NCBI RefSeq assembly: GCF_019263705.2
Contig: NZ_JADQDK010000001.1
Location: forward strand, 930,001-994,000
DNA length: 64,000 nucleotides
From: Pseudonocardia abyssalis
GTDB lineage: Bacteria > Actinomycetota > Actinomycetes > Mycobacteriales > Pseudonocardiaceae
Direction of reading: 5' to 3'
The notes under the pieces are model-generated. The model made no database searches. It was not told where the DNA came from and saw only the letters and a list, made by a program, of their open reading frames with translations. Both the position numbers and the translations under genes were made by a program. Below, one piece after another: positions 1,985 through 62,187 of this stretch; positions within the stretch are counted from its first letter, which is position 1, and every line of letters begins with the position of its first letter.

Positions 1985-1988
1985 GCCC

Positions 1989-3089: not shown

Positions 3090-3096
3090 CGCGGCT

Positions 3097-3128
3097 CGTA
3101 CACAGGGTCAGGTCCGGCCCTGTGTACG
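3097..3128. terminator. bidirectional hairpin terminator
   Basis: Perfect 11-bp inverted repeat (left arm CGTACACAGGG at 3097-3107, right arm 3118-3128) with a 10-nt loop, placed between the convergent kinase and RNase D genes. It has no U-tract, as is usual in GC-rich actinobacteria. Confidence 0.75.
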
Positions 3129-3155
3129 GCCCCCGGGAGGTGCGAGGCGGGGGAG

Positions 3156-12261: not shown

Positions 12262-12320
12262 GCGCTCCAGGCTACGTCCGGACCCTGACAGCGCGCCGCG
12301 GATCCGCGAGAACAGGGTCC

Positions 12321-12617
12321 TCACAGCCACGTCGTCACCACGAACACGAACGCCTCCCACACCAGGAACGCGGCGACGGCGAGCAGCAGCCCGACGACGA
12401 GCACGGCCCCCCAGCGGCGGCTGCCCTCGGCCCGGTTGGCGGAGTCGGCGAAGTGGCTCACCCCGTCCAGGTAGCCCTCGACGGTGAACGCGGGGCGCTG
12501 TCGCTGCATCCGGTCGAGGTGCTCGGCGAAGGCCCGGGCCTCGGGATCGGCGGGGTCGAGCCCGAGCAGCTCGTCGTCGAACCGGTCGGAACGGTCCGGG
12601 CGGTGGAGTTCGGGCAC
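12321..12617 (-). CDS. small C-terminally anchored membrane protein
   Basis: A 98-aa protein of unknown function. The N-terminal ~70 residues are polar and acidic (RFDDELLGLDPADPEARAF). A single hydrophobic helix sits at the C-terminus (about residues 73-95, WGAVLVVGLLLAVAAFLVWE), so it is probably tail-anchored with the soluble part in the cytosol. GTG start selected because a TACCCT hexamer ends 6 nt upstream and there is no ribosome-binding site. Divergent from the ligase-associated polymerase gene. Confidence 0.75.
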   Translation of the reverse strand: MPELHRPDRSDRFDDELLGLDPADPEARAFAEHLDRMQRQRPAFTVEGYLDGVSHFADSANRAEGSRRWGAVLVVGLLLAVAAFLVWEAFVFVVTTWL

Positions 12618-12649
12618 GGGAGCAGGGTAGCGGAGTAGCGTGCCGCAGC
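12618..12649. promoter_or_regulatory. compact divergent leaderless promoter pair
   Basis: Minus-strand -10 TACCCT (12629-12624) lies 6 nt from the GTG at 12617. Plus-strand -10 TAGCGT (12636-12641) lies 8 nt from the GTG at 12650. The whole intergenic space is 32 bp, so both start sites coincide with or abut the start codons. Confidence 0.6.
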
Positions 12650-13687: not shown

Positions 13688-13874
13688 CCTCGGGTGCGCG
13701 CCCCACCCCACATGCGCACCATCTCACTCTCGAGCGCTCACGCCTCTTCCGATGGGTCACGACACGCCGGGCGACGTACACCCGGATGGACGTATTCGCG
13801 ATACCTCCGCGACACACGGTCGTTGAACCCGGTGACGACAGGCCACTGGGGCCGGATCGGACGGGGGGTGCACG

Positions 13875-15386: not shown

Positions 15387-15390
15387 TCCC

Positions 15391-16962
15391 TCACGGCGGG
15401 CAGAGCGTGCCCGCCGCCGGGAGCAGCCCGTCGACGAGCAGGGTGTCCACCGCCGTCCGGACGCACGGCGTGCGGGGGTAGGCGCCCGTCCCGGCCCCCT
15501 GCCAGCTGACGAACGCGCCGGTCGTGAACTGCTCGGAGATCCTCCGTGCCGCCTCGGCCGGGTACCGCGGGTCGCCTGCGGTGCCCACGACGAGTACCTG
15601 GGGCAGCGTCTCGGCGGGGGCCGGTGCCGCCCGCGCCGTCCCGGCCGGCCACGGCGCGCAGGCCAGCAGGCCGAGTGCGAGGGTGCCGCCGAACAGCGGG
15701 TGGTCGGTGCGCAGGGTGGTCGCGAGCTCGCTGACCTCCGGTGGGGAGAGCCGCGTGGGGTCGTCGTTGCAGGTGGTGGCCAACGTCGCGTCGAACCCTC
15801 CGGTCGGCCCGGTCAGCGGGTCGAGCAGGCCGAGCAGAGCCGTCGGGTCGCCCGTGGCCGCGGTGGCGAGCGCGCCGGACAGTGCGGGCCACTCGTCGGG
15901 GCGGGCCAGGACGGTGAGCACCGTGAGCAGTGCCGCGCCCGCGGTGAGCCGTCGCCCGTCGGCAGCGGCCAGCGGACGCGAGCGCAGGGCGTCGGCGAGT
16001 GCGGTCACGGCCTCGCGCGGGTCGGCCCCGAGCGGGCAGGCGCCGCCCCCGGTGCAGGCCAGCGCGAACGCGTCGAACGCGGCGTCGACCGACGCCGCGC
16101 GGGCGGTGCTGCGGTCCGGCTCGGTGGCGGCGGCGTCGGGTGGCCCGTCGAGGACGAGCCGGCCGACCCCGCCGGGCGCGGTCCGGGCCCAGGTGTCGAG
16201 CGCGCCCGCCCCGTCACCCGTGCCGACCGCGGAGAGGCGGGCGACGCCGAGCCGGACCCGCAGCTGCTCGACGTCGGCGGCCGTCGCGGAGCTGCGGAGG
16301 CCCCCCAGCCCGGAGGGCAGCGTGAGGTTGCAGTCCTGCACCACGGATCGGGCCCGCTCCAGCAGCGGGGCGAGGTCGCCCTCCGAGGTGGCGGCGGGGT
16401 CGGCGTCGACGAGTGCGGCGCGCGCGGCGGGGTCGGCGCAGTCGATGCGATCCACTCCCGCCCCACGCCGGTCGAGACCGATCACGGTGTACGTCTCGAG
16501 CACGGCGGGGGAGACGCGGGCGGCGACGGCGAGGGCGTGACCTGCCGTCGGGCCGGTCGCGCTGTCGCCGACGGCGAGCAGCGGGGGACCGTCGAGCGGG
16601 CCGCCGGCCGGACCGATCCGCACGACGCCGAGCAGCACGCTGCCCTGCTCGGGGCGGTCCGGGTCGGCCGGGACCGGCAGTTCCCCGCACTCGACGCGCA
16701 GCGCCCGGTCGGCGGGGACGGCGACGTCGTACGAGGCGAACGCGTCCGAGGTGCAGTCGGCGAAGGGGATCGAGGTGTCCTGCGCCTGCAGCGGTGGCAT
16801 CGCGGGGACCGACGGACCTGGGCTCGCGGCGGGTGCGGCGGGGAGCCCGTCCTGCCCGCGCACCGCCACCGGGGGACGCTGCGACGGACCGACCGTGCAC
16901 CCGGCCAGCAGGGCGGACAGACACAACAGCCCCGCGACGACGCGGCGTGGATTCCCGATCAT
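15391..16962 (-). CDS. lipoprotein related to S33 tripeptidyl aminopeptidases, active-site degenerate
   Basis: Secreted lipoprotein of 523 aa: signal peptide with lipobox LLAGC (Cys22). The alpha/beta-hydrolase body contains the family landmarks YTVIGLDRRGAGVDRIDC, a paired-Cys lid, VLVVGTAGDPRYP (acid Asp kept) and the C-terminal Cys-rich tail VDGLLPAAGTLC. The nucleophile elbow, normally GxSxG, reads GTGDG, and the His of the usual GAGH motif is Thr (GAGTG). Two triad residues are therefore missing and it is unlikely to be a hydrolase. A binding or scaffold role is possible. Convergent with the DUF732 gene. Confidence 0.85.
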   Translation of the reverse strand: MIGNPRRVVAGLLCLSALLAGCTVGPSQRPPVAVRGQDGLPAAPAASPGPSVPAMPPLQAQDTSIPFADCTSDAFASYDVAVPADRALRVECGELPVPADPDRPEQGSVLLGVVRIGPAGGPLDGPPLLAVGDSATGPTAGHALAVAARVSPAVLETYTVIGLDRRGAGVDRIDCADPAARAALVDADPAATSEGDLAPLLERARSVVQDCNLTLPSGLGGLRSSATAADVEQLRVRLGVARLSAVGTGDGAGALDTWARTAPGGVGRLVLDGPPDAAATEPDRSTARAASVDAAFDAFALACTGGGACPLGADPREAVTALADALRSRPLAAADGRRLTAGAALLTVLTVLARPDEWPALSGALATAATGDPTALLGLLDPLTGPTGGFDATLATTCNDDPTRLSPPEVSELATTLRTDHPLFGGTLALGLLACAPWPAGTARAAPAPAETLPQVLVVGTAGDPRYPAEAARRISEQFTTGAFVSWQGAGTGAYPRTPCVRTAVDTLLVDGLLPAAGTLCPP

Positions 16963-17027
16963 GACCGGGGCAGCGTGTCGCAGGGCCGGTGTGGCAGGGG
17001 TGAAGGCCGCAGCGGTGACGGTGGGTC

Positions 17028-17684
17028 TCAGGCGACCCGGGGGCCACTGGTGGGCTGGTCGAGCTCGAGCCGGACCGCCACCGGGAGGGCGGCGATCCCG
17101 AGCGAGGAGCGGGCCGAGGCCAGGACCTGGCCGTGCAGCTTCTCCAGCACGTCGCGGACGTCGGCGTCGTCGGAGAGCCAGACCCAGACGCGCAGCGCCG
17201 GGGCGTCCTCGGTCCCGACCATGCGTGCCTTCGCCCGGCCGACGCCGGGGAGCTCGGCGGCCTGCGCGGCGAGCGCGTCGGCGGCCGCGGAGGAGCTGAC
17301 GGTGATCGCCGTCGCCGGGCCGCGGTCGATGACCAGGTCCGGCTTGCGCTCCGGGCGCAGCGAGCGCGCGGCCCAGGACAGGCCGAGCACGAGCAGCAGG
17401 AGGCCGACGAGGATCGCGACGATCCGGGCGATCAGCGGCTGGGCACGCAGCAGGTCGACGACCATCGGGTCGAGCAGCGGGCGCCCGCCCCGGTCGGTCC
17501 CGAACACGCCGTAGCCCAGCAGCGCCACCAGCACCCCGACGGCGAGCACGACGGTGCCCAGCAGCACCAGCAGGGACCGGTCCCCGCCCGAGGACCGGGC
17601 GACGGCCGACCTCGAGCGGCGCTTGAGCGCACCCGAGGCCGGCGCGGGCGGCGGATCGGCCGGCTTCTCCATCGAGACGGTCAT
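17028..17684 (-). CDS. amaP: AmaP-like alkaline shock response membrane anchor
   Basis: Last gene of the Asp23 operon, 218 aa. A Pro- and Arg-rich cytoplasmic N-terminus precedes two transmembrane helices (about 37-58 and 84-105), then an Asp23-like cytoplasmic domain (SSSAAADALAAQAAELPGVG ... ALRVWVWLSDDADVRDVLEK). In firmicutes AmaP tethers Asp23 to the membrane; the same role is inferred here. ATG overlaps the stop of the preceding gene by 4 nt and is followed in frame by a second ATG. Confidence 0.85.
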   Translation of the reverse strand: MTVSMEKPADPPPAPASGALKRRSRSAVARSSGGDRSLLVLLGTVVLAVGVLVALLGYGVFGTDRGGRPLLDPMVVDLLRAQPLIARIVAILVGLLLLVLGLSWAARSLRPERKPDLVIDRGPATAITVSSSAAADALAAQAAELPGVGRAKARMVGTEDAPALRVWVWLSDDADVRDVLEKLHGQVLASARSSLGIAALPVAVRLELDQPTSGPRVA

Positions 17685-18220
17685 CGGGGGCCCTTCCTCT
17701 GCTGCACGGTGACGGCGACCCGCGGGCGGCGGGCCAGCGGCAGCTCGTCGAGCAGGGTGTCGACGGTGGAGGAGATGCTGCTGCGGAGCTCGGAGCCGGA
17801 GTCGTTCCAGGCCTGGGCCCCGACGGCTACCTTGCGGCCGGTCGCGGTGACCGACGCGGCGGCCACCCCGTCGGCCGCGCGGACCCGGCGCCCGACGAGC
17901 CGGGCGAGCACGCGCGGGGAGGTCGTGACGGCGACCTCCGGGGCGGGGGAGGTCAGCGCGATGTCGTGGCGGCGGGCGAGCAGGCCGATCAGCAGGAGCA
18001 GCAGCCCGAGGACGGCGACGCCGATCGCGATGCCGGGTACCGGTGCGTCCGCCCAGGTCAGCGACTCGAGGGAGGTGCGCCAGTCGGGCCAGGGCACGAG
18101 CAGGCCGGCGGTTGCGGGGGTCCGCACCCACGCGGCGACGACCTCGATGACGGTCAGGACTCCGACGGCGGCCAGCGCGAGGCCGAGGAGTGGGGCGAGG
18201 ACCCTGAGCAGGACACGCAT
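17681..18220 (-). CDS. DUF6286-type membrane protein of the Asp23 operon
   Basis: A 179-aa protein with two transmembrane helices (about 3-28 and 60-83) and a C-terminal cytoplasmic domain of the Asp23-like type (ARLVGRRVRAADGVAAASVT). Known only as a partner family in actinobacterial alkaline-shock operons. The ATG at 18220 is preferred, since AGGAG lies 6 nt before it; an ATG two codons upstream sits too close to that site. The upstream gene's TAG stop is part of the same ribosome-binding region, so translation is probably coupled. Confidence 0.82.
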   Translation of the reverse strand: MRVLLRVLAPLLGLALAAVGVLTVIEVVAAWVRTPATAGLLVPWPDWRTSLESLTWADAPVPGIAIGVAVLGLLLLLIGLLARRHDIALTSPAPEVAVTTSPRVLARLVGRRVRAADGVAAASVTATGRKVAVGAQAWNDSGSELRSSISSTVDTLLDELPLARRPRVAVTVQQRKGPR

Positions 18221-18229
18221 GGTCATCTC

Positions 18230-18613
18230 CTACTGGACTCGGGAGCCGGAGCCGGTGGAGCCGTCGTCGGGTCCACGCAGGCCGGACACGGTGACGGCGA
18301 GGTTGCGGATGCGGCGGCCGGTGATGCGGACGAGCTCGTCGCCCACCCGGCCGCGGACCGCGTCGACCGTCCGGCGGACGGGTGCGGGGTACTGCAGCGT
18401 GAGCTCGAGCGCGACGTCGACGGCACCGTCGGGCCCGTCGCTGATCTTCGCGGTGGACCCCGCCTGCCCGACGCCGACGCCCGCGAGGCGGCGCTCGTGG
18501 CGCAGCGTGCCGGGGGTGCCGTCGGCGGCGTATTCGACGATCTTGCGCAGCACCGTCGGGTGGATGTCGAGCCGGCCGCGCTCCTCGGGGGAGGCGGCGT
18601 CGGACCCGGTCAC
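18230..18613 (-). CDS. Asp23/Gls24 family envelope stress protein
   Basis: Compact 127-aa Asp23/Gls24-domain protein. The conserved body is LRKIVEYAADGTPGTLRHER ... VALELTLQYPAPVRRTVDAV ... GDELVRITGRRIRNLAVTVS, the usual beta-alpha pattern ending in the IRNLAVTVSGL strand. It is predicted to bind at the membrane through AmaP-like partners and to act in cell-envelope homeostasis. GTG start overlapping the stop of the small membrane protein upstream by 4 nt. Confidence 0.88.
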   Translation of the reverse strand: MTGSDAASPEERGRLDIHPTVLRKIVEYAADGTPGTLRHERRLAGVGVGQAGSTAKISDGPDGAVDVALELTLQYPAPVRRTVDAVRGRVGDELVRITGRRIRNLAVTVSGLRGPDDGSTGSGSRVQ

Positions 18614-43863: not shown

Positions 43864-44292
43864 GCGGACGAGCTGGCCGGGCGGCCGCGTCGGCGGTCCA
43901 CCCGGACCGCCGCCGAGGAAAGTCCGGACTCCGCAGGGCAGGGTGGTTGTCAACGGCAACCCGGGGTGACCCGCGGGACAGTGCCACAGAGAACAGACCG
44001 CCTCCCGCGTCTCGTGTCGTTTGCGAGAAGCGGGCGGTAAGGGTGAAACGGTGGTGTAAGAGACCACCAGCACCCCGGGTGACCGGGGTGGCTCGGTAAA
44101 CCCCACCCGGAGCAAGACCAAGAGGGCCCCGCTCCGGCGGGGTCTGCGCAGGCGTTCGAGGGCGGCCCGTCCGAGTCTGCGGGTAGGTCGCACGAGCCCG
44201 TCGGCGACGGCGGGCCTAGATGGATGGTCGCCGGGCGGTGAGCCGCGAGGCGCACCGCTCACAGGATCCGGCTTACAGGCCAGCTCGTCCCA
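43864..44292 (+). ncRNA. rnpB: RNase P RNA (class A)
   Basis: Catalytic RNA of tRNA 5' processing. The P1 helix pairs GGACGAGCTGGCC at the 5' end (from ~43866) with GGCCAGCTCGTCC (44279-44290 region) at the 3' end. Conserved core blocks are present: GAGGAAAGTCCGGACT, the AAGGGTGAAACGGTG and GTAAGAGACCACCAG region, GGCTCGGTAAACCCCACC, CCTAGATGGATGG and the terminal GATCCGGCTTACAGG. A TAGACT -10 (43852-43857) sits 7-8 nt upstream. Ends are accurate to a few bases. Confidence 0.97.
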
Positions 44293-44649
44293 CCTCATCG
44301 GATCTGACCTGCGGAAACGCGGTTCAAGATCGTTCGCATGGCACGCACACGGCACAAGAATTGAAGATCTTGGTCGAGCAAGATCGATCTCGCTCGATTC
44401 TCATCCACTGTGGACGATACGGCGCATGATCCGTTCAGCGGGACCGTTCGAGGACCGCGGCCGCGCCATCGTCTGGCCCGTCCCGGCGCGATCGCGTGCC
44501 CGCCGACTGCTCGGACTCCTGCGTCGGCGCCCGCGGGCTACCGCGATGTGGACGACATCGGTACGGGTTCACTCGAGGGTCGAGCCACTGTGGCTGCGGT
44601 GTGGTCCAGCGGTGGTCCGCGGCGTGGTCGCCGGTCGGGGCGTGGTCCG
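44293..44649. other. intergenic region downstream of rnpB, no gene recognised
   Basis: No convincing reading frame. Base composition is visibly less GC-rich than the neighbours at 44320-44410. It contains an inverted repeat GATCTTG-N6-CAAGATC (44366-44385) and an overlapping CGAGC/GCTCG pair. As it separates rnpB from an integrase remnant, it is the most likely place for an attachment site or rnpB terminator. Confidence 0.4.
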
Positions 44650-45095
44650 CTAGAGCGTGGGCGGCGGTCGGAGGACGGCGTCGATGGCGGCGCGGGTGCG
44701 GTCCTCGGAGTCGGGCCAGAGGTGGGCGTAGGTGTCGAGCGTCTCCGCGGCGGTGGCGTGCCCGAGGCGGCGCTGCACGGTCTTGACCGACTCGCCGTGG
44801 CGGATGAGGAGTGAGGCGTAGTAGTGGCGCAGGTCGTGGAAGCCGGTGCCGCGCCGCGCTCCCGTGGCTGCGATGGCCGGGCGCCAGATCTGGTAGGAGA
44901 ACGTGGTGCGCCGGATGCCGCGTCCGTCGTCGTCGGTGAAGACCAGTCCGTCACGGTGGCGGACCGGGAACTGCTCCAGGTGGGGTGCGCAGCGCCCCCA
45001 CCACCCCGGGGAGCGGGACCGTGCGGTACGAGGCCGGCATCTTGGGCGGGCCGAAAAGAATGGTGGCCGTGCTCGATTCGACGGTCGGTCGGTGG
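44650..45095 (-). pseudogene. tyrosine recombinase (phage-type integrase), truncated and frameshifted
   Basis: Minus-strand remnant of an integrase C-terminal catalytic domain. Readable pieces are ATILFGPPKMPASYRTVPLP, then after a frame change HLEQFPVRHRDGLVFTDDDG, FHDLRHYYASLLIRHGESVK, TVQRRLGHATAAETLDTYAH and LWPDSEDRTRAAIDAVL up to a TAG stop. HxxR, LGH and the nucleophile Tyr (DTYAHL) are preserved. One extra C near 44987 (accccacctgg for acccacctgg) shifts the frame. Upstream of ~45,095 a stop appears and homology is lost, so the arm-binding and core N-terminal parts are gone. Confidence 0.8.
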
Positions 45096-45574
45096 CGGAT
45101 CTACGAGCTCCGACGTCCGCGAACGCCGCTCACGGCCTTCGGCCAGGGCGAGGCAGTTCCTCAGGCTCGGCAGGTTGTCGCTGCCCGTCCGATCCCGCCG
45201 GCGGTTGCTGAGCTTGCGGGTACCGCAGACCTCGATGCTCTCCTCACGAAGTACTGCCCAGGGCAGCGGCGGCAGTCCCGGACCAGGAACTGGGCCGACG
45301 GGGATTGGTGACCCGCTGGACGGGGTGGCCCATGAAGCCGCCTCGGTCAGATCCACTTGATGGCGTTGTCGGCCATGCCCGTCTGCGTCGGTGAAATGGC
45401 GCAGCCCGCCGGAACAGAGCCAGGTTCGACCAGAAGGCCGCATTGTCTTCGCGTGCGTCCGGACAATCTGTGGGCCAAGCTCGTTCCAGGATGACCTGTC
45501 GCTCATCGTGGAGGGGCTCCGTCCCGCTTCGTCCGCCCCGGTGACGCAAGAGGTACGGCGCCACGATGGGCGAC
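45096..45574. other. non-coding remnant between integrase and helicase genes
   Basis: No reading frame with recognisable protein character on either strand over ~480 bp; short open frames here look like chance. Probably decayed element DNA. Confidence 0.4.
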
Positions 45575-48500
45575 TCACTGTGGGTCTGACCCGGTCGGTA
45601 GTCCATCGGCGGTGCGGGCGAGTGCGGTGACGGCGTTGAGCCGTTGTCGGATCGACGGTCCGCGACGGCGGACCCCATAGGTGAGCGCGGTGTAGCGGTG
45701 GACCGTGTCGAGATCATCCCACCCCAACCGGTCGGCCACCCTGGCCATCACTGCGGCGAGCTCCGAGGGCGGGACGTGGTCGAACTCCCGCGGACCCAGT
45801 TCGCGGACCCTGACCGCTTCCTGCTCAGGTAGTCGGAAGGTGCGCGGCTTGATCCCGACCTCGCCAAGGGGGTCGTACTGGATCAGACGTCCCTGCCGCA
45901 CTGCGGTGGAGACGGCCCGGTTGAGCAGGCGTGCGATCTGCGAACCGACGCGCTGCCCAGCAGAGGAGCGCACATAGACGGAGTGCAGGCGATGCCCCAC
46001 AATCGGGCCCTCGGCGGCTACGATCTGTACGAGACCGTCGACGAGGTCCTGGCTCCTCGCCGATCCGACGGGAACGAGATCTCCGGAGAACGCCGCGTAG
46101 GGATCCAGTTCAGCCAGAGTAGGTTCCTCTGGCGTCGATGCGTGTGCCGCGTCGGCGGGCGAGACCGGCGAGACCGGCGACGGTTCCGATCGGTCGGCCG
46201 CCGAAATGGCGACAGGAATCTCGACCGTCGCCGGATCGTCATCAACATTGATCGGCATCGCGGGCTGATCAGTGAGGTCGGCGGGCGCAGGAGGTAGCCA
46301 TCCCGAAGGATGGATCTCCAATCCCTCCAGCTGTTCCCAGACAACAGCCATGGCTGACGCGGGATCGCGGACGAAATCGGATTCGAGGACGCGGACGAAC
46401 GTCCAACCGCACCGTTCGAGCTCCCTCTGGCGGGCCATATCGCGCTGGTGGGCCTCGGGCCCGTGCCAGAAGTCGCCGTCGCATTCGACGGCCAGGCGTG
46501 CGTGCGCTCCCACTACGACGAGATCGATGCTGTAGCCGAGAGCCGGGTACTGCGGAACGACGCTGTACCCGCGATCGGCAATCCGGTTGCAGACCCGCTG
46601 CTCGAACCGCGAGCCGAAGGGCTGGACGACCACGTCCTCGCGTACGGGCGCGGTCACGAACCGCTCGTCGTCGGCTGAGCTGCGGGCGGTGATGCCGTAG
46701 CAGTAGTCGAGCAGCTGGAAGCGCATGTCCTCCGGGTTGTGCAGGTCGGCGAGCGGCACCGAGTGGAAGACCCAGACCTGGTCCTTGGCCCGAGAGAATG
46801 CGACGTTGTACCGCTGCACGTACTGGGCGCTGGTGAGCGCGGTAATCCGACGGTCGGGTCCGGGTGCCGCGACCATCGACAAGAACATGACGTCCCGCTC
46901 AGAGCCTTGGAAGTCCGCGGCGTCGCCGCACCGCAGGTCGCGATCGACCCACTGCTGCGGCGACATCCGCTCGAGCAGCTTCTGCTCGATCGCCTTGGCC
47001 TGACCTGAACCCAGCAGCGAGATCACGCCGAAGGTGAGGCCGTCGTAGCGGGGGTCGGCGGCGCACTTCTCGAGCTGATCGACCAGGGCGTCGACCTCGG
47101 CCGGGTTCGTTCGGGCGGCCGAGGAGCCGCGCTCATACCCGTCGTGCACGAAGACCGGACAGATCGGTACGAGCCGGTCGGGTCCGAACTGGCGGACCGG
47201 GATCAGACGCACGCCGTCCGGCTCGTAGGCGATGCGATTGGAAAAGTTGATGATCTCCGGCACGCAGCGGCGATGTTCGGTCAGGGTGAGCATGCCGCTG
47301 AAGCGCATCTTCGCCTCGTCGAAGAGGCTGCGCTGCGGATCTTGCCAGGTGGAGCGGTACTGGTCGTCGTACAAGTGGTGGCGGGCGAGGTCGCGCAGTT
47401 CCTGCTGGTCGACGCCCACCGCGCTCGGCGAGACCTGGCGATCGTCACCGATGACCACGATGCGGGGAGCGAGGTACTGCAGGAACGTCGCCTCCACGCC
47501 CGCCTGCGAGGCCTCGTCGACGATGACGACGTCGAACATCCCGGGCTCGACGCTGAGCTGGTCAGCGATCCGGTACAAGGGCATGATCCAGACCGGGACC
47601 GCGGCACGGCATCGGTCGAGCGCAGCCCGAATCTCGGTACGCCGCTGCTCGCGGTACTTGCCGCCGGTCTTCCCGAAGCCCTTCACCAGGCCCGCGTACT
47701 GCTCGAGGCTTGCCCGCGACCGCTGGGTGAGGCGATCCGGACGGACGGCGTGGCCCCAGGCCCGCCTGGACGCGAGTTCCTGCACCTGCCGCCTGATCAG
47801 ATCTTCGATCTCGACGATGCGATGCTGGACGTCGCCGACATCGGTGCGCACGAGGTTGTCGATCCGAACTCCCGCCGCGGCCCACATCCAAGCCTTCTCG
47901 AGGTCGGCGAGGCGGGTCGGCCACAGCGGATCCTCGGGCATCCGCTCGATCGCGTCCGCCAGGTCGGGGGCCGCCGTCCACAGCACGTCACGAGCAGCAG
48001 CACGCGCGGCGCACATGGCCCGCACCTCGTGCAACCGCTCCAGGCGCAACCGCGCCGCGGTGTACGCCGCGGGGTCCCGGTCCGACACGGCAGCGCGAAG
48101 CTGGGCGACAACTGCTCCGGCGTCCGGGCGGCGGGCCACGTCGTCGATGTCGTCCAACACCTTCTGGATCGCGGCCCGCGCAGTGGTCTCCTGCTCTGCG
48201 CTCGCCACCGCAGCGGGAAGCTGCACGACCTCGCTCGTGGTGCGACCGTCCCGCCACACCGTGGGCGGCAGACCCGCGGCCGCGGAGGCTCGGTCCTCCT
48301 CGTGGAGCGCGGCACCCAGCCTGAGCAGTCGCTCCAGGAGCGCGTGGGTGTCGGCGTGACCGTGGAGTCGTTCGGTGACGTCGCCCGGGACCTCGGCCCG
48401 CGCGGCGGGCGCGGCCCGGTCGAGCGCGTCCAGCAACCGGTGGACGTCCAGCCAGCGGCGGACGGCCGTCAGCTGGTCGGTCGTCGTCGCAGGGACGCCG

Positions 48501-50704
48501 TCGACCCGCACCCGCTCGAAGAAGTCTGCGGCGTCCTTGACCGGGCGGGCGGTCAGCATCCCGATCCGTGGGGTGCCGTCGCCGCTCACCTTGATCTGGC
48601 CGCCCCCCGCGAGGTGCGTCAGTAGGTTCAGGGCGTGGGGGTCGAGCCCGCCGTGCGGCCCGCTCACCCGGACATCGACGACGACGCCCAGCTGGGACAC
48701 GACCTCTCGCAGGCGTACGAGGAGGGCTCCCATCCGGTCCCGATGATCGGCCCATCGCTGCGGTCGCCCGTCCAACACATCGTTCAGCGCCGCGTTGCGC
48801 AACCACGGTTCTGATCGACCGGCCAGCGCACCGGTCTCGGTGACCAACCGCGAGTAACGCTGCCCGAGCGCTTCGCGGTCGGTTGCAGGGAGACGTTCGA
48901 CCGCTGTGTAGGCAGGGTGGTGGGCGTACTGCCGCAGGCGGGCCGCTTCCTCCTGGCTCGTGCGCTCGACGCTGACCAGCGCGGCGAAGGTCCCCGCGTC
49001 CGGCACGGATCGGAGATCGACGAGCACGGACTGCGCCGCGGGCTCGTCGCGGATCAGCTCCTCGTCGAGCAGGGCGGCGTGCCAGCGTAGGACGTCTGCC
49101 GAACGCATGGGCGGTTGGTCGTCGGCAGGCGCGGCGAGGTCTTCGATCCAGCCGTGCTCCGCCCGCTCGTCCTCCAGCCGGGCAGCGATCGACGCGGCGG
49201 TCCCGGAATAGCCTGTGAAGGTCTTGTCGTCGACCTCGCGCCTACGGGCCTCGGCGAGTGTGTGCTGCAGGGACGCCCGCTGCCGGCGGAGCGCGTCGAT
49301 CCTCGTGAGGTGCTCGGTGATGGCCCGCCCCGACTCGGCCGCGTCGAAGTCGCCCGCTGCCGCGCCTATGCGTTCCACGGCAACCCGTAGATCGGACATC
49401 TCCTCCCGTCCGGCCCCCACGATGGCGACGGCCAGGGGTCGGATCGGGTCCGGGAGCTTCCCACGAACTTCCTTGAGGGCCCGGTCGGTCTGCGCGGTGA
49501 CCAGGACCCGCTTGCCCTGAGCGAGCAGGTGCGCGATCAGGACAGCGGCGGTATGGGTCTTGCCGGTACCGGGCGGACCCTGGATGAGGGTCTGCGCGTG
49601 GCTGTCGACGCGCTGGAGGATGCGCAGCTGCGTCTCGTTGACCGGCAAGGGCAAGAAGGGCTCGTCGTCGATCGTGACGAGAGCACCCGCCGCCGGTTCA
49701 CCGGAAGTGTCTACGGCCGGAACGGCGTCCGGATCGACGAGCGGTCGCACTCCGGGTGGGACCTGCCCACTCTCCTGGATCTGCGCGACGATCCGCCGGA
49801 AGACCTCGACCAGCCCCTGCTGCGATCGGCGGCGCAGGACGAGCGCGGGTGCGAACGCCCCGATCGGGCGGGGCGTGACCGGGGGAGGCGTCATGTCGTC
49901 GCGGTACTCGGCGTCCGCCGCGAGCAGGTGCACAACGCGTCGGGCGATCTCACCGGCGTGATCGGGGTCCAGCGGTGAGCCGGCGGCCTCCCGAGCCCGT
50001 TCCTGGACGGCGTTGATCGTGGCCGGGTCGCGGATCAGACCGGGGTCGATCATCTCCGTCTCGACCCGGGGTAGCTCGCCGCCGTCGTCCACTGCGACGA
50101 CGAGCCGCGCGGTGTCCTCGTCGAACGCGACGCGCACGGGCGTCGTGCTCAGGTGCCGGCGGAGAGTCTGACCCTGGCCGGGCCGCCACGCGAGCAGCCC
50201 GGTACCGATCACGGTCTCCAGCTCGTCCGGTCGACCGGACGCCTTGACGTAGGTCGCGAACAGCGCGGCGTACACCTCGCGGACCGGTCCGTCCCGCAGC
50301 TCTCGGCGCGCCCACTCCTCCCAGGGGCCGAGGTAGGTGGCGAACGCGTCCGCGATCTCGGGATGCTCGCCGAGCGGGTGGTTCTCGTCGTCGAGCAGCG
50401 CGGGGGCCTGTCGCGGATCGTCCACCCTGCCCGCGAGCCACGTGCGCAGCTCGGGACCGGGTCGGGGTGGTTCGACGGGTGGGATGCGGTCGATCGTGAG
50501 CAGCGAGCCGTCGGCAGCGGTGCCGTCGGTGGTGTACACGGCCGGGTGCTCAGGCAGCTCGTGCCACCAGTGCACAGCGCCCTCGGTGCGGTACGACTCG
50601 ATGTCCCGCACGATCGGCGCGCGCAGCTGCTGGGCCCTGCCGAGGAACGTGAACAACCGGACGGCGTGGTCGACGAGCGGGTCGGCTGCGGACGTGCTGA
50701 TCAC
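45575..50704 (-). CDS. giant SF1 helicase-nuclease (COG1112-like helicase, Vsr/DUF559-type endonuclease, winged-helix-like tail)
   Basis: A 1709-aa protein, by far the largest here. Domains in order: ~370 N-terminal residues of unknown type; Walker A QGPPGTGKTHTAAVL (~residue 375); ~650 residues with coiled-coil segments; motif II FDVVIVDEASQAGVEA and motif III VVIGDDRQVSPSA (~1060-1090); motifs near DFQGSERDVMFLSMV and YNVAFSRAKDQVWVF; then a PD-(D/E)XK/Vsr-like nuclease (~1360-1450) with SRFEQRV, YSIDLVVV and VECDGDFWHG; then an acidic linker and a DUF3320-like domain (EGPIVGHRLHSVYVRSSAGQ). GTG start with AGGAG 10 nt upstream. Less GC-rich than its neighbours. Probably nucleic-acid-targeting defence. 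Confidence 0.88.
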   Translation of the reverse strand: MISTSAADPLVDHAVRLFTFLGRAQQLRAPIVRDIESYRTEGAVHWWHELPEHPAVYTTDGTAADGSLLTIDRIPPVEPPRPGPELRTWLAGRVDDPRQAPALLDDENHPLGEHPEIADAFATYLGPWEEWARRELRDGPVREVYAALFATYVKASGRPDELETVIGTGLLAWRPGQGQTLRRHLSTTPVRVAFDEDTARLVVAVDDGGELPRVETEMIDPGLIRDPATINAVQERAREAAGSPLDPDHAGEIARRVVHLLAADAEYRDDMTPPPVTPRPIGAFAPALVLRRRSQQGLVEVFRRIVAQIQESGQVPPGVRPLVDPDAVPAVDTSGEPAAGALVTIDDEPFLPLPVNETQLRILQRVDSHAQTLIQGPPGTGKTHTAAVLIAHLLAQGKRVLVTAQTDRALKEVRGKLPDPIRPLAVAIVGAGREEMSDLRVAVERIGAAAGDFDAAESGRAITEHLTRIDALRRQRASLQHTLAEARRREVDDKTFTGYSGTAASIAARLEDERAEHGWIEDLAAPADDQPPMRSADVLRWHAALLDEELIRDEPAAQSVLVDLRSVPDAGTFAALVSVERTSQEEAARLRQYAHHPAYTAVERLPATDREALGQRYSRLVTETGALAGRSEPWLRNAALNDVLDGRPQRWADHRDRMGALLVRLREVVSQLGVVVDVRVSGPHGGLDPHALNLLTHLAGGGQIKVSGDGTPRIGMLTARPVKDAADFFERVRVDGVPATTTDQLTAVRRWLDVHRLLDALDRAAPAARAEVPGDVTERLHGHADTHALLERLLRLGAALHEEDRASAAAGLPPTVWRDGRTTSEVVQLPAAVASAEQETTARAAIQKVLDDIDDVARRPDAGAVVAQLRAAVSDRDPAAYTAARLRLERLHEVRAMCAARAAARDVLWTAAPDLADAIERMPEDPLWPTRLADLEKAWMWAAAGVRIDNLVRTDVGDVQHRIVEIEDLIRRQVQELASRRAWGHAVRPDRLTQRSRASLEQYAGLVKGFGKTGGKYREQRRTEIRAALDRCRAAVPVWIMPLYRIADQLSVEPGMFDVVIVDEASQAGVEATFLQYLAPRIVVIGDDRQVSPSAVGVDQQELRDLARHHLYDDQYRSTWQDPQRSLFDEAKMRFSGMLTLTEHRRCVPEIINFSNRIAYEPDGVRLIPVRQFGPDRLVPICPVFVHDGYERGSSAARTNPAEVDALVDQLEKCAADPRYDGLTFGVISLLGSGQAKAIEQKLLERMSPQQWVDRDLRCGDAADFQGSERDVMFLSMVAAPGPDRRITALTSAQYVQRYNVAFSRAKDQVWVFHSVPLADLHNPEDMRFQLLDYCYGITARSSADDERFVTAPVREDVVVQPFGSRFEQRVCNRIADRGYSVVPQYPALGYSIDLVVVGAHARLAVECDGDFWHGPEAHQRDMARQRELERCGWTFVRVLESDFVRDPASAMAVVWEQLEGLEIHPSGWLPPAPADLTDQPAMPINVDDDPATVEIPVAISAADRSEPSPVSPVSPADAAHASTPEEPTLAELDPYAAFSGDLVPVGSARSQDLVDGLVQIVAAEGPIVGHRLHSVYVRSSAGQRVGSQIARLLNRAVSTAVRQGRLIQYDPLGEVGIKPRTFRLPEQEAVRVRELGPREFDHVPPSELAAVMARVADRLGWDDLDTVHRYTALTYGVRRRGPSIRQRLNAVTALARTADGLPTGSDPQ

Positions 50705-50810
50705 CGGATGTGCTCTCCTGTCGAGGTCGGACACACCATGAGTACACGACGGCACCGACAGTCACAGATGCCCGAGTCGGAACTCCGCTGTCCGGGCGAC
50801 GGCGCCACGC

Positions 50811-51209
50811 TCATCCGGCTTCGCGATGGTGTGTGTACAGCGGCGCCATCGCTTCCATCTGCTCGAGTACGAGCCGGATGGCGTCGAGCTGCTTGTCCGG
50901 TGGGTACTTGTGCTTGATGAGCAACCGCTTGATCGACGATCGGAGCTTCGCCCGGACGTCATCGCGGACCATCCAGTCCGTCTTGACGTCTCGGCGCATC
51001 ACCGCGACCAGCTCCCGTGCGATGGTCGCCAGGACGTCCTCGCCCTGCAGCTCCACCGCCGACTCGTTCTCGCTCACCGCGTCGTAGAACGCCAGCTCGT
51101 CCTCGGGCAGCGGCGGGGTGAACCGTTGTCCGCGGTCGCCCTCGGCGGCGACCTCCTTGGCCAGGGCGATCAGCTCTGCGATCACCTCGGCTGACGTGAG
51201 CTGCTGATT
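50811..51209 (-). pseudogene. 3' fragment of a type I restriction enzyme R subunit gene (hsdR)
   Basis: About 130 C-terminal codons of HsdR: LTSAEVIAELIALAKEVAAE, DELAFYDAVSENESAVELQG, VAVMRRDVKTDWMVRDDVRA and KLRSSIKRLLIKHKYPPDKQ, the conserved HsdR C-terminal helical domain, ending at a normal stop. No helicase motifs or start codon remain, since the frame meets the panE fragment at ~51,210. It lies 106 bp upstream of the helicase-nuclease on the same strand, so the two were probably neighbours in a defence island before truncation. Confidence 0.82.
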
Positions 51210-51620
51210 CGTGTCGACCCGGGTGAGCTGCTGCGCGAGGCGGGACTCGACGTCGACTCCTCCGCGCCCGAGGAGTCCACCCTGCTCTGGCGCAAGCTGT
51301 GCTTCCTCGGCCCGTTCGCGCTGCTCACGACGCGGGCGATGGAGCCGATCGGGCCGGCCCGCGAGTCCGGGCCCGACCTGCTGGACTCCCTCGTCACCGA
51401 AGCCGTGGCCGCCGCGACGGCAGCCGGGGCGCGCGTCGACGGGGCGGCGGTCCGAGCCCGGCTGGGCGGGATGCCCGCGACGATGCGGTCCTCGATGCTC
51501 AAGGACGCCGTCGCCGGGGCCGTCCTCGAGCTCGACGCCGTCGCCGGTCCGGTCCTGCGGGCGGCGCCGGACGGCGCACCTGTCACCCGCGGGATCGTCG
51601 CGGAGATCGCGGCCCGCTGA
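51210..51620 (+). pseudogene. 3' fragment of a ketopantoate reductase-like gene (panE/apbA)
   Basis: The plus strand encodes the C-terminal helical domain of ketopantoate reductases: ELLREAGLDVDSSAPEESTL, LWRKLCFLGPFALLTTRAME, EAVAAATAAGARVDGAAVRA, ARLGGMPATMRSSMLKDAVA and GAVLELDAVAGPVLRAA. The N-terminal NADPH-binding half is absent. It begins exactly where the hsdR fragment ends, so an insertion or deletion event removed its 5' half. An internal ATG (51339) could allow translation of ~93 aa, but the product would not be an enzyme. Confidence 0.8.
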
Positions 51621-57719: not shown

Positions 57720-57902
57720 CTACTCGGTGCGCCGGATCGCCCGGAGCTCGACGGTCGAGGGCGGTGTGACGAGCGAGGCGGGGTCCTCGACCTGGTGCCC
57801 GTCGACCAGCACCCAGCCGTCGTGCGGGTGGTCGCGGGCGCGGGCCCCGGTGATGCCGGCCTGCACCAGCCGGTCCAGCACGGTGCTTCGCGACGTCGTC
57901 AT
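57720..57902 (-). CDS. 60-aa S4-like putative RNA-binding protein
   Basis: A 60-aa protein with an S4-domain-like pattern: VLDRLVQAGITGARARDHPH, then WVLVDGHQVEDPASLVTPPS and TVELRAI. The loop-strand 'V.VDG..V.DP...V' is how S4 domains present their RNA-binding surface. No catalytic domain is attached. ATG with an excellent ribosome-binding site (AGGAGG, 7-nt spacer), which is the main support that it is real. Lies between the Usp and FdhF genes on the opposite strand. Confidence 0.72.
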   Translation of the reverse strand: MTTSRSTVLDRLVQAGITGARARDHPHDGWVLVDGHQVEDPASLVTPPSTVELRAIRRTE

Positions 57903-58025
57903 CGGTCGTCCTCCTGGAGACGGGTGGACCGACATCTCGGACCGCCCCGGGCGGGGACGGGCCGAACGGCCCGGGAAACCTGGACCTCCCCGGTTGCGCC
58001 GCGCCGAAGCGGGTACGTCAGCTCC

Positions 58026-60398
58026 ATGAAGCAGCCCAAGCGCCGGACCACGGACTACGACGAGTCGGACCTGCGCGTGACCCACCCGGAGCACTGGGCG
58101 GCCGGGGTCCCGGGTGTGGCGGTGTCGCTCAAGCGCGCGTTCGAGCGCATGGGCGCCTCCCGCACCGCCCGCACGCTGACGAAGCTCAACCAGGCCGAGG
58201 GCTTCGACTGCATGAGCTGTGCCTGGCCGGACCCCGACCCGGGGCACCGCTCGATCGCCGAGTTCTGCGAGAACGGCGCCAAGGCCGTGGCCGAGGAGGC
58301 GACGACCGACCGCGCGACCCCGGAGTTCTTCGCGCGGCACAGCATCGCCGAGCTCGACGAGCGCTCGGAGTACTGGCTGGGGCAGCAGGGCCGGATCACG
58401 AACCCGATGGTCAAGCAGCCGGGTGACACCCACTACCGGCCCATCGACTGGGAGGGCGCGTTCGCGCTGATCGGGCGCGAGCTCCAGGCGTTGGACAGCC
58501 CCGACGAGGCGACCTTCTACACCTCGGGCCGGGCGTCGAACGAGGCCGCGTTCGCCTACCAGCTCCTCGCGCGGGCGTTCGGCACGAACAACCTGCCGGA
58601 CTGCTCGAACATGTGCCACGAGTCGACGTCGATCGCGCTGCAGGAGTCGATCGGGATCGGCAAGGCCAGCGTCGTGATGAGCGACCTCGAGACCGCCGAC
58701 CTGATCATCATCGCCGGGCAGAACCCCGGCACCAACCACCCGCGCATGCTGACGCACCTGGAGATGGCCAAGGAGCGTGGCGCGAAGATCCTGACGATCA
58801 ACCCGCTGCGCGAGGCCGGTCTGACCCGCTTCAAGAACCCGCAGCGGCCCAAGGGGGTCATCGGGCACGGCACGGCGCTGTCGGACCTGCACCTGCCGAT
58901 CCGGATCAACGGCGACCTCGCGCTGTTCCAGGCGATCGGGTCGCTGCTCGTCGAGTGGGACGCGCTCGACCACGAGTTCATCGAGCGCCACACCACCGGC
59001 TTCGACGCCTGGAAGAGGCACGTCGAGGCGCTGGACTGGGACGCGGTGCTGGCCTCCACCGGGCTGACCCGTGAGGAGATCACGCGCGCCGCGGAGATGC
59101 TGCGCGACTCCCGCGGCACCGTGTTCTGCTGGGCGATGGGTGTCACCCAGCACCGCAACGGCGTTGCGACGATCAAGGAGATCACGAACGTCGCGCTGGC
59201 CCAGGGCAACATCGGGCGCCAGGGGGCCGGGCTGTTCCCCGTCCGCGGGCACTCCAACGTGCAGGGCGACCGCACCATGGGCATCTGGGAGCGGGTGCCG
59301 GACGCCTTCCTGGACTCGCTGCAGAAGGAGTTCGGGTTCGACCCGCCGCGCGAGCACGGGCTCGACACCGTCGACTCGGTGCGGGCGATGCGCGACGGGA
59401 AGGTGAAGGTCTTCGTCGGGCTCGGCGGCAACTTCGCGCAGGCCACCCCGGACACCGACGTGACGGCGACGGCGCTGCGCCGCACGCGGCTGACCGTCCA
59501 GATCTCGACGAAGGTCAACCGCAGCCACCTCGTGTGCGGCGAGATCGCCCTGATCCTCCCCGCGCTCGGGCGCACGGAGAAGGACGTGCAGGCCACCGGG
59601 CCGCAGTGGATCTCCGTCGAGGACTCGACGTGCTCGGTGCACTCCAGCCGCGGCCCGCTGCCGCCCGCCGGACCGCTGCTGCGCTCGGAGGTCGCGATCG
59701 TCACCGGGATCGCCGAGGCCGCGCTGGGGGACCGGTACGGCATCGACTGGTCCCCGATGCGCCAGGACTACCGCCGCATCCGCGAGCACATCGCGCGCGT
59801 GGTGCCGGGCTGCGAGAGCTACGAGGTCAACGCGCGGCGCCCCGGCGGGTTCGTCCTGCCGCACCCGCCGCGCGACTCCCGGACGTTCCCGACGGAGTCC
59901 GGGTCGGCCGAGTTCGTCGTGTCGCCGGTGGAGGTGCTGCACGTGCCCGACGGGCACCTGCTGCTGCAGACGATGCGCAGCCACGACCAGTTCAACACCA
60001 CGATCTACGGGCTGTCGGACCGTTACCGCGGGATCGAGGGCGGACGTCGCGTGGTGTTCCTGCACCGCGACGACATCGCGGCGCTGGGCTTCGACGACGG
60101 CGACCACGTCGACCTGTCGACCCGCTGGGACGACGACGACATCGAGCGCTGCGCCCGCGACTTCCGGATCGTGGAGTACGACACCCCGCGCGGCACGGCG
60201 GCGGCCTACTACCCGGAGACCAACCCGCTCGTGCCGCTGGACCACGTCGCGGAGGGCAGCCACCAGCCCGCGTCCAAGTCGGTGATCATCTCGCTGTCCC
60301 GCGCGGGTGCGGCGCAGGGGACCACGACCGGCGGGCAGAACGGGGTCGACGCCGAGGAGGGGGAGAAGGACTACCCGCGCCCCGAGCACCTGTCCTGA
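58026..60398 (+). CDS. FdhF/YdeP-family molybdopterin oxidoreductase
   Basis: A 790-aa molybdopterin-dependent oxidoreductase of the YdeP/FdhF (Rv2900c) type. Visible: FDCMSCAWPDPDPGHRSIAE, YTSGRASNEAAFAYQLLARA, the Mo-ligand region LPDCSNMCHESTSIALQESI, IIAGQNPGTNHPRMLTHLEM, GVTQHRNGVATIKEITNVAL, GHSNVQGDRTMGI and the C-terminal molydopterin-dinucleotide domain (LLLQTMRSHDQFNTTIYGLS). Often annotated as formate dehydrogenase alpha subunit, but the N-terminal 4Fe-4S Cys cluster of true enzymes is not obvious and the reaction is uncertain. No FdhD or partner subunits nearby. ATG start. Confidence 0.92.
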   Translation: MKQPKRRTTDYDESDLRVTHPEHWAAGVPGVAVSLKRAFERMGASRTARTLTKLNQAEGFDCMSCAWPDPDPGHRSIAEFCENGAKAVAEEATTDRATPEFFARHSIAELDERSEYWLGQQGRITNPMVKQPGDTHYRPIDWEGAFALIGRELQALDSPDEATFYTSGRASNEAAFAYQLLARAFGTNNLPDCSNMCHESTSIALQESIGIGKASVVMSDLETADLIIIAGQNPGTNHPRMLTHLEMAKERGAKILTINPLREAGLTRFKNPQRPKGVIGHGTALSDLHLPIRINGDLALFQAIGSLLVEWDALDHEFIERHTTGFDAWKRHVEALDWDAVLASTGLTREEITRAAEMLRDSRGTVFCWAMGVTQHRNGVATIKEITNVALAQGNIGRQGAGLFPVRGHSNVQGDRTMGIWERVPDAFLDSLQKEFGFDPPREHGLDTVDSVRAMRDGKVKVFVGLGGNFAQATPDTDVTATALRRTRLTVQISTKVNRSHLVCGEIALILPALGRTEKDVQATGPQWISVEDSTCSVHSSRGPLPPAGPLLRSEVAIVTGIAEAALGDRYGIDWSPMRQDYRRIREHIARVVPGCESYEVNARRPGGFVLPHPPRDSRTFPTESGSAEFVVSPVEVLHVPDGHLLLQTMRSHDQFNTTIYGLSDRYRGIEGGRRVVFLHRDDIAALGFDDGDHVDLSTRWDDDDIERCARDFRIVEYDTPRGTAAAYYPETNPLVPLDHVAEGSHQPASKSVIISLSRAGAAQGTTTGGQNGVDAEEGEKDYPRPEHLS

Positions 60399-60422
60399 AC
60401 CGCACCGGGGCATCCTCGGGGG

Positions 60423-60965
60423 ATGAACGCCACCGACGTCCTCGCGGACGCCTTCTCCCGCGTGCGGGACAGCGCGCACGCCGCCGTCGCCGACCTCACC
60501 GCCGGGCAGCTCGCGTGGCGGGCCGACCCGGCGGCGAACACCGTCGCCTGGCTGCTCTGGCACCTCGCCCGAGTGCAGGACGACCATGTGGCGGGTGTCG
60601 CGGGGAGCCCGCAGGTGTGGACCGCCCAGGGCTGGTCGGAGAGGTTCGCCCTCCCGTTCGACGACGCCGAGATCGGTTACGGCCACCACGCCGCCGACGT
60701 CGCCGCGGTGCACCCGGACCCACCCGACCTGCTCACCGGCTACCTCGACGCCGTCCTCGCCCGCACCGGGGAGTACCTGGCGACGCTGACCGACACCGAT
60801 CTCGACCGCGTCGTCGACGAGGACTGGGACCCGCCCGTCACGCTGGGGGTGCGACTGGTCAGCATCGTCGACGACGACCTGCAGCACGTCGGGCAGGCCG
60901 CCCTGCTGCGGGGGATCGTGTTGCGCGAGGCGGTGGAACCGGACACGGTGACAGGGCGGGCCTGA
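60423..60965 (+). CDS. DinB/maleylpyruvate-isomerase-like (DUF664) protein
   Basis: A 180-aa four-helix-bundle protein of the DinB_2/DUF664 group. Metal-binding His residues are in TVAWLLWHLARVQDDHVAGV and SIVDDDLQHVGQAALLRGIV, the usual three-His pattern. Related proteins are mycothiol-dependent transferases or isomerases, which would fit an actinobacterium; no substrate can be assigned. ATG 6 nt after CATCCT, a possible leaderless -10. 24 bp downstream of the fdhF-like gene and 24 bp upstream of idi. Confidence 0.88.
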   Translation: MNATDVLADAFSRVRDSAHAAVADLTAGQLAWRADPAANTVAWLLWHLARVQDDHVAGVAGSPQVWTAQGWSERFALPFDDAEIGYGHHAADVAAVHPDPPDLLTGYLDAVLARTGEYLATLTDTDLDRVVDEDWDPPVTLGVRLVSIVDDDLQHVGQAALLRGIVLREAVEPDTVTGRA

Positions 60966-60989
60966 CGCCGCGGTGGCAGGCTGGGCGCC

Positions 60990-61535
60990 ATGCCCCCCAC
61001 CCCCGAGCAGGTCGTCCTCGTCGACGACGACGGGCGCCCGGTCGGCGTCGCCGACAAGGCCACCGTCCACGGCACGAGCACGCCCCGGCACCTGGCGTTC
61101 TCCTGCTACGGGTTCGACGCGTCCGGTCGCGTCCTGGTGACGCAGCGGGCGCGCGACAAGCGGGCGTTCCCGCTGGTCTGGACGGGCACCTGTTGCGGCC
61201 ACCCCGCACCGGGGGAGGACCTGGCCGATGCGGTGCACCGGCGGCTCGACCACGAGCTCGGGGTCCGCGCCCACGACCTGCGCCTGGTCCTGCCCGACTT
61301 CGGCTACCGCGCGTCGGACGCGGGCGGGATCGAGGAGTACGAGTTCTGCCCGGTCTTCGTCTGCACCCTCGACGCCGACCCCCGCCCGCTGCGCGGCGAG
61401 GTCGAGGCGTGGCAGTGGTGGGGCTGGGAGCGGTTCCTCGACGCAGCTGCGGCGGGCGAGCTGTCTCCGTGGGCCGCGCTGCAGGCCCCGCTGCTCGCCG
61501 ACCTGGGCGACCCCCGCACCCGCCGCACCGGCTGA
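60990..61535 (+). CDS. idi: isopentenyl-diphosphate delta-isomerase, type 1
   Basis: Interconverts IPP and DMAPP using Mg2+/Zn2+ in a Nudix fold, 181 aa. The catalytic Cys is in VWTGTCCGHPAPGEDLADAV and the catalytic Glu in GGIEEYEFCPVFVC; the Nudix-like LDHELGVRA and WQWWGWERFLDA segments are intact. Works downstream of the MEP pathway begun by dxs. ATG start; CAGGCT lies 7 nt upstream as a possible leaderless -10. Convergent with a globin pseudogene. Confidence 0.95.
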   Translation: MPPTPEQVVLVDDDGRPVGVADKATVHGTSTPRHLAFSCYGFDASGRVLVTQRARDKRAFPLVWTGTCCGHPAPGEDLADAVHRRLDHELGVRAHDLRLVLPDFGYRASDAGGIEEYEFCPVFVCTLDADPRPLRGEVEAWQWWGWERFLDAAAAGELSPWAALQAPLLADLGDPRTRRTG

Positions 61536-61541
61536 GCGACT

Positions 61542-61854
61542 CAGCGGGGGGTACGGGGCGCCTCGCCCCCAGCGCGGGGACGGCAGGTTCTGCGGTGGGG
61601 TCGCACCGGGGGCGGAGTCGGCCCGCGCGATCCGGGTGCCCCACTCGACGTACGCGACCGGTGCCGACCGGAACTCCGGGCCGCCGGACACCTCGCCGAG
61701 CCGGCGGGCCACGTGCTCACGGTGATCGGGGCTCATCCGGCGGGAACACCGGTTCGAGCGTCGGGTCGGCCGCCACCCGGTCGTCGAGCACCTCGGTGAG
61801 CCGGAGCAGGGCGGAGTGGCCGCCGCACCAGTCGTAGAGCGTCGGATGCGGCAC
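61542..61854 (-). pseudogene. group II truncated haemoglobin, frameshifted and internally deleted
   Basis: The minus strand begins like a trHbO-type globin: PHPTLYDWCGGHSALLRLTE, then VLDDRVAADPTLEPVFP, after which the frame ends. A second frame continues MSPDHREHVARRLGEVSGGP and jumps to EFRSAPVAYVEWGTRIARAD and PRWGRGAP, the usual C-terminus. The ~40 residues in between, which include the proximal-His region, are missing. One frameshift plus one deletion make it non-functional. Confidence 0.7.
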
Positions 61855-62187
61855 ACGCCCCGCTCATCACAGCGTTGCGCCCGTCCACGGTAGCGGCTTC
61901 GGGCGTCACCCGGACGGGGTTCGCTCGTTGTACCCACCGAGCGCCCTGGACGCCCGCCGGTCGCGACGAACGGCGTTCCTGAGAACGCGTCCGGCGTCCG
62001 GCGCATCGCGCTGAGCCGATCGGGTCACCCGCACCGTCGGTCGTCGCGCCACGGGAGCATCTGGCCGTGCGGACGCAACCCGGGTTCTCAGATTCGGCTC
62101 CGCCCACGCACCCGTTCGTACGGTCGGCTCCCAGCCCTCGGACGCTCCCCGCGACGAATCCTTCCCGAGGGTGGAAGGAGACCAGCC
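61855..62187. other. intergenic region before a secreted-protein gene
   Basis: About 330 bp without a recognisable gene. It should contain the promoter of the secreted protein at 62188; only that gene's AAGGAG ribosome-binding site near 62,175 is clear. Confidence 0.4.

Follow-up and report, generated by a model that had tools for sequence, protein, structure and literature searches.

The gene analysed here lies on the minus strand of a 64,000 nt-long stretch of Pseudonocardia abyssalis DNA (contig NZ_JADQDK010000001.1, positions 930,001 to 994,000, hereafter the window) and encodes a single protein of 1709 amino acids (aa), in which a helicase of superfamily 1 (SF1) is almost certainly joined to a nuclease. 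Judging from sequence and model comparisons, the protein represents a family of its own, related to yet distinct from the catalogued single-protein defence systems Hhe and ProA. A defence role is very likely, and the best explanation of the gene, which we considered probable, is that of a single-gene effector against phages or other mobile elements. The original prediction, made from the letters of the DNA, had proposed a candidate anti-phage system, and this reading gains support from the patchy spread of the family, its conserved active sites and the predicted defence genes around its members.

Motor, nuclease and terminal regions

The ORF (open reading frame) that contains the gene runs over positions 45575..50755 and has 1726 codons, counted from an upstream GTG. 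We preferred the GTG at 50704, which gives the 1709 aa originally proposed, because the ribosome-site sequence AGGAGA is found upstream of it and because the alignments of relatives mostly start at residues 14-34 of the 1726-aa frame (one starts at 10). All the residue numbers given below refer to the 1726-aa frame, and 17 has to be subtracted from them to obtain those of the 1709-aa frame.

With Pfam we found AAA_11 at residues 372-493 (E 6.7e-18, 65.8 bits, cut-off 27), AAA_12 at residues 1141-1330 (E 3.2e-12, 46.9 bits, cut-off 27), the MTES_1575 restriction endonuclease (REase) domain PF18741 at residues 1384-1476 (E 4.6e-31, 107.2 bits, cut-off 38.2) and a weak match to DUF559. The SF1 helicase with Walker A and DEAS motifs described in the original prediction is borne out by the two AAA matches and by the motifs GPPGTGKT and VDEAS; the Vsr/DUF559-type nuclease with E...D...E-x-D spacing corresponds to the MTES_1575 domain, with E1385, D1411 and E1424-x-D1426 as the catalytic set.

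The conservation of these residues was counted in the query and in the ORFs of 60 relatives, picked by their N-terminus alone, and rows with a gap at a given site were excluded. As in the start-position alignment, the first domain scan and the core tree, the loci were read on the plus strand only, hence these sets miss minus-strand loci (e.g. L004, L007, L011, L015, L017, L021, L023 and L024). K399 was kept in 60/60 rows, and D1080 and E1081 in 50/51 rows each, the remaining row having an X. In the nuclease, E1385 was kept in 46/49 rows, D1411 in 47/49, E1424 in 46/50 and D1426 in 45/50, so that a lack of conservation of the nuclease residues among homologues, named beforehand as a point that would speak against the anti-phage reading, was not observed.

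The AlphaFold2 model of residues 1376-1726 has a predicted local distance difference test (pLDDT) value of 86, and its nuclease part is closest to 3hrl (Foldseek E 1.4e-3, probability 1.00, target template modelling (TM) score 0.78); it also matches the homing nuclease I-Bth0305I, which we take to be Vsr-like, and Vsr itself ranks lower (E 0.22, probability 0.97). In terms of predicted domains, the protein clearly carries an intact UPF1/Dna2-type SF1 motor and a Vsr-type nuclease whose catalytic residues are conserved.

The N-terminal region has no Pfam match, in agreement with the original prediction, which recognised no family there; a large family shares it, however, and it is not an orphan. 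Precisely, when a hidden Markov model (HMM) of residues 18-372 alone was run against the 104 loci L001-L104, 68 of them matched at E < 1e-10, among them that of the window itself (L002), and the N-terminus is therefore a constant part of the family (the domain scan for N-terminus and tail was later repeated on both strands of these loci). A search for the N-terminus outside helicases gave 9 matches of 213-612 aa among 8000 scored candidates, four of them with AAA domains, and all 9 were interpreted as pieces of family members. With Foldseek, the N-terminal model had no match at E <= 0.001 (the best was Upf1, 8e-3), and VIA-align gave the top ranks to UPF1 and Dna2 at middling Z values, for a model that contains part of RecA1 (residues 372-470), which favours UPF1/Dna2 matches. 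We regard it as a probable accessory region of the helicase (stalk/1B).

When the profile of the N-terminus was compared with DUF4011-type N-termini, a value of E 1.4e-12 was discarded, because the templates included the query's relatives L056, L058 and L088. Clean template sets gave E 0.0024 (8 sequences) and 3.1e-4 (27 sequences, 67 columns), and the best values of 40 and 60 column-shuffle controls were 0.09 and 0.28, respectively. By these profiles, a remote kinship to DUF4011-type N-termini over the 67 columns is likely.

As for the C-terminal tail, DUF3320 (PF11784) matches it directly with 11.6 bits (E 0.28) against a cut-off of 25 bits; the label DUF3320-like used in the original prediction is nevertheless fair, because an HMM of the family tail matches the tails of the DUF3320 proteins L089, L092 and L094 (E 1.5e-10 to 1.2e-4). 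The tail model gave winged-helix matches to linker histones at E about 0.2-0.4 (Foldseek). The tail was found in 9/68 of the N-terminus-bearing loci, some of which are cut by contig or locus ends, i.e. in the window's own and in eight other actinobacterial ones (L003-L006, L027, L028, L034 and L043). It is also present in L089, L092 and L094, which are without the window-type N-terminus and of which L092 and L094 carry DUF4011. By these comparisons, a predicted winged-helix tail is a feature of this subfamily.

A family beside Hhe and ProA

In a protein search, 1309 of 7999 scored proteins matched at E <= 1e-3, and among the 120 matches listed the identity was at least 47% and the query coverage 83-99%. 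Scanning species genomes with the family alignment gave at least 80 loci, from many phyla.

The window protein scores 209.8 bits against ProA (NF058533), below the cut-off of 1500, and 207.7 bits against the PADLOC candidate PDC-S37 (PDLC05009, without a curated cut-off), the latter in two stretches of which the better one starts at residue 748. Similarly low values, at most 256 bits (ProA) and 249 bits (PDC-S37), were obtained for the family members L030 (Cytobacillus), L032 and L054 (Azohydromonas), for L088, whose N-terminus is at the edge of detection, and for a paralogue in the same genome as the window. Outside the family, the five relatives L092, L094, L097, L098 and L104 reach 1280-1567 bits against ProA and 1422-2026 bits against PDC-S37; two of them pass the ProA cut-off (L092 with 1518 and L104 with 1567 bits), and DUF4011 was seen with Pfam in L092, L094 and L104, that is, in all three of the five that were scanned.

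The core tree was a quick one of 85 rows, rooted at the midpoint and with Shimodaira-Hasegawa-like approximate likelihood ratio test (SH-aLRT) support only. In this tree 15 rows, including the five outside relatives, form one side with support 100, and 55/55 rows labelled as N-terminus-bearing are on the side opposite to the relatives matching ProA and PDC-S37; five split-gene loci were given this label by hand, and one of them, L062, is without an N-terminal match. On the family side there are 15 further rows in which the N-terminus was undetected, consisting of truncated or diverged ORFs and of six rows on one long branch (five Gastranaerophilales and one unclassified), for which the program warns of possible misplacement.

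The window protein has in common with ProA and PDC-S37 an SF1 helicase in which a large insert separates motifs I and II, the MTES_1575 nuclease and a DUF3320-type tail, whereas the relatives matching these models carry an N-terminal DUF4011 and are separated from it in the tree. With Hhe (DUF4011-helicase-Vsr) it shares the order of N-terminal domain, SF1 helicase and Vsr-type nuclease. The likeness to Hhe-type helicase-Vsr fusions suggested at the outset thus holds for the domain order, but the protein is not Hhe: it scores 102.4 bits against that model (NF042953, cut-off 2000), gives no Pfam match to DUF4011 at E <= 1 and is assigned to its own family beside Hhe and ProA. The MTES_1575 protein of Microbacterium testaceum, to which Anantharaman et al. 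(2013, PMC3710099) ascribe HEPN, transglutaminase, SF1 helicase, Vsr REase and two winged helix-turn-helix (wHTH) domains in a conflict context, has an SF1 helicase, a nuclease of the same family and a wHTH tail overlapping DUF3320, but the window protein is without a HEPN or transglutaminase match in Pfam and its N-terminus is different. The sister proteins ProA and Hhe carry anti-phage names at NCBI; our literature search found nothing on PDC-S37 and, by title and abstract, nothing recognisable on the present family or on an anti-phage function of ProA.

Distribution, neighbours and local setting

For the genome surveys we scored the first 8 candidates per genome in the genus and the first 2 in the phylum, hence the counts are lower bounds. 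A match at E <= 1e-50 was found in 16/62 genus genomes and a close (55% or more) full-length copy in 5/62, the own genome included, with a fragment in one more (G059). In the phylum-wide survey 4/296 genomes matched, again including the own, which holds the window gene and one divergent paralogue (C1:312080-316147). This paralogue (L115, G000:C1:312080-316147) is a strongly diverged second helicase-nuclease of the family, with neighbours that are shared in G026 and G018, unlike the mobile-looking main family.

Forty-three plasmid records match the query, one of them over 80% of its length, and the phage records searched gave no match. Two IMG/VR contigs carry a copy, apparently of a single element. 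On the IMG/VR contig L169 a family member (3-4883) has a DndC-like sulfurtransferase, a large ATPase and a DUF4007-like gene directly upstream (names given by eye), and this contig, classed as viral, may represent a phage-like element with a defence island. On the Deinococcus plasmid L202 the family gene (12043-18356) is annotated in several pieces and is interrupted by an IS701 transposase gene.

A regular partner gene was sought in 65 loci, many of them with short flanks, and none was found: 11 neighbour clusters were present in at least 3 loci, the largest of them in 7. The exception is the divergent paralogue clade (L114, L115 and L117), which has shared neighbours. Apart from this clade, homologues conserved as housekeeping genes in syntenic positions, the other finding that was expected to speak against a defence role, were not encountered.

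The nearest genes of 20 actinobacterial family loci (five genes per locus, four for one; L114, L115 and L117 left out) gave 99 proteins with 41,790 aa, which match 132 PADLOC families at E <= 1e-12, versus 7 families for 102 control proteins (41,755 aa) from 17 regions chosen by hand, 16 of the same genus and one of the same order; this enrichment is a tally of families, the number of neighbour proteins with a match being known for the 25 listed families only. The gene caller was home-made and occasionally picks antisense ORFs (e.g. window 57723-62000). Among the listed families are models of BREX, type IV restriction, JetA, Druantia and MADS, of which the MADS model mad3 also matches one control, and a Pfam run on the neighbours only, without the controls, gave GmrSD (4 proteins), DUF2397 (JetA) and toxin-antitoxin families. 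By these annotations the actinobacterial members clearly reside among predicted defence genes, and a survey of homologues for such enrichment was one of the checks named in the original prediction. On plasmids, 2/3 of the regions looked at contain genes that we take to be Wadjet-like: a DUF4194 and AAA-ATPase gene pair near the Variovorax copy, and TIGR02678-02680 and DUF2397 genes near the Streptomyces copy, a putative family gene that was matched over residues 930-1516 only. The Deinococcus plasmid region has no annotated defence gene.

The gene of the window seems to lie in what is left of an inserted island (Table 1), because the stretch is bordered by rnpB and by a gene that is presumably ketopantoate-reductase-like, contains the C-termini of an integrase and of hsdR (both already noted in the original prediction and recovered here by profile), is low in G+C (66-68% around 45000-47500, where much of the outside DNA has 73-78%) and has an integrase end that follows rnpB elsewhere too. 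From rnpB to the shared part there are 6.9 kb in the window and about 4.3 kb in the relative G018. The same integrase end follows rnpB in G026 and G023 by DNA alignment, with a short match at the protein level in G023 only, and the stretch directly after rnpB looks like a recurrent insertion site (window 43869-45003; L166, L168). Direct repeats (att sites) were sought around the island, and none was convincing.

Table 1. Positions in the window of the gene, its domains and motifs, and the adjoining features
Feature	Position	Strand	Evidence or remark
rnpB (RNase P RNA), border of the inserted stretch	43869..44291	plus	Rfam RF00010, 270 bits
Tyrosine integrase, C-terminal remnant	44653..45003	minus	Phage_integrase, E 1.1e-10
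SF1 helicase / MTES_1575-Vsr nuclease gene, 1709 aa	45575..50704	minus	GTG start 50704; ORF open to 50755
Winged-helix and helical tail (DUF3320-like), residues 1568-1718	45602..46054	minus	AlphaFold2 model, profile links
MTES_1575 (Vsr-like PD-(D/E)XK) nuclease, residues 1384-1476	46328..46606	minus	Pfam; fold matches 3hrl, I-Bth0305I, Vsr
RecA2 / AAA_12, residues 1141-1330	46766..47335	minus	Pfam
Motif II VDEAS, residues 1079-1083	47507..47521	minus	D1080, E1081 each 50/51 rows, remaining row X
Walker A GPPGTGKT, residues 393-400	49556..49579	minus	K399 in 60/60 readable rows
N-terminal region (residues 18-370), conserved across the family, probably a stalk/1B-like accessory region of the helicase	49646..50704	minus	
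Type I restriction HsdR, C-terminus fragment	50814..51218	minus	T1RH-like_C, E 5.1e-48
Reductase-like gene, C-terminal part, other border of the insert	51215..51620	plus	Frame open over full length in relative G018

In G026, the ORF after the integrase-end DNA reads by eye as a Mrr-type restriction enzyme. Elsewhere in the window (57720-62006, minus strand) a very long antisense ORF of 1428 aa lies opposite a gene that looks, by eye, like a molybdopterin oxidoreductase.

Proposed mechanism and alternative functions

In the mechanism that we propose, the stalk/1B region and the RecA domains would grip single-stranded DNA, or a junction of single- and double-stranded DNA, in invading or replicating foreign DNA, and ATP-driven movement, with the 5'-3' polarity expected of this SF1 class, would feed the strand to the nuclease. 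The Vsr-type domain could then either cut processively or lose an auto-inhibition in response to an abnormal DNA state or to a phage protein such as single-stranded DNA-binding protein (SSB). There are precedents in published accounts, in which Hna is auto-inhibited and activated by phage SSB (PMC13381803), the Hachiman helicase senses DNA damage and activates the nuclease (PMC12278908), and Nhi is a single-gene system linked to SSB (review PMC12904381). Together with Gabija, these are helicase and nuclease work-alikes, several of them linked to DNA state or phage SSB, and we considered them as analogies of mechanism only. As no regular partner gene was found, recognition would probably depend on DNA structure rather than on methylation or a guide, although whether the window protein senses DNA structure is, in our judgement, close to an even call. 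A further-reaching proposal, which is put forward more tentatively, is that of a cross-phylum unnamed family of single-gene defence proteins that forms the sister group of the DUF4011 proteins (Hhe/ProA); here, an enlarged UPF1/Dna2-like stalk/1B module would sense phage DNA structures or SSB and gate the Vsr-type nuclease of the same chain.

The type IV restriction, GmrSD, BREX and Wadjet (JetA) models among the neighbours and the two plasmid copies near Wadjet-like genes could also fit a modification-dependent (type IV-like) or anti-plasmid restriction enzyme, which would recognise modified or plasmid DNA by its N-terminus or winged-helix tail while the motor brings the nuclease; this is unlikely, as so few N-terminus-bearing loci carry the tail, even with some of them truncated, and the nuclease fold is Vsr-like. 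An accessory DNA-repair helicase-nuclease (Dna2- or RecBCD-like), trimming flaps or broken ends of host DNA, was considered rather improbable: the UPF1/Dna2-like model and the occurrence of some paralogues among shared neighbours would agree with it, but close full-length copies are limited to few genus genomes, and the family has defence genes and no regular neighbour as company. Among the solved motors that come nearest, by model and by sequence, are the RNA helicases UPF1, Sen1 and Senataxin, but a defence that destroys phage RNA with a UPF1-like motor and a nuclease is very improbable, the MTES_1575 fold being most like Vsr and homing-type DNA endonucleases. Equally improbable is a non-functional relic in a decayed island, for while the adjoining hsdR, integrase and reductase genes are all fragments, this gene has 1709 open codons, intact catalytic residues and a good ribosome site.

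A single-gene effector against phages or mobile elements remains the explanation that we prefer. Despite the spread of the family over many phyla, PADLOC 2.0.0 and NCBIfam 20.0 match the members tested just weakly and partially (ProA, PDC-S37 and Hhe). Being self-contained, the protein is an easy subject, and it could show how a helicase-nuclease without a methylase or a guide discriminates phage from host DNA.
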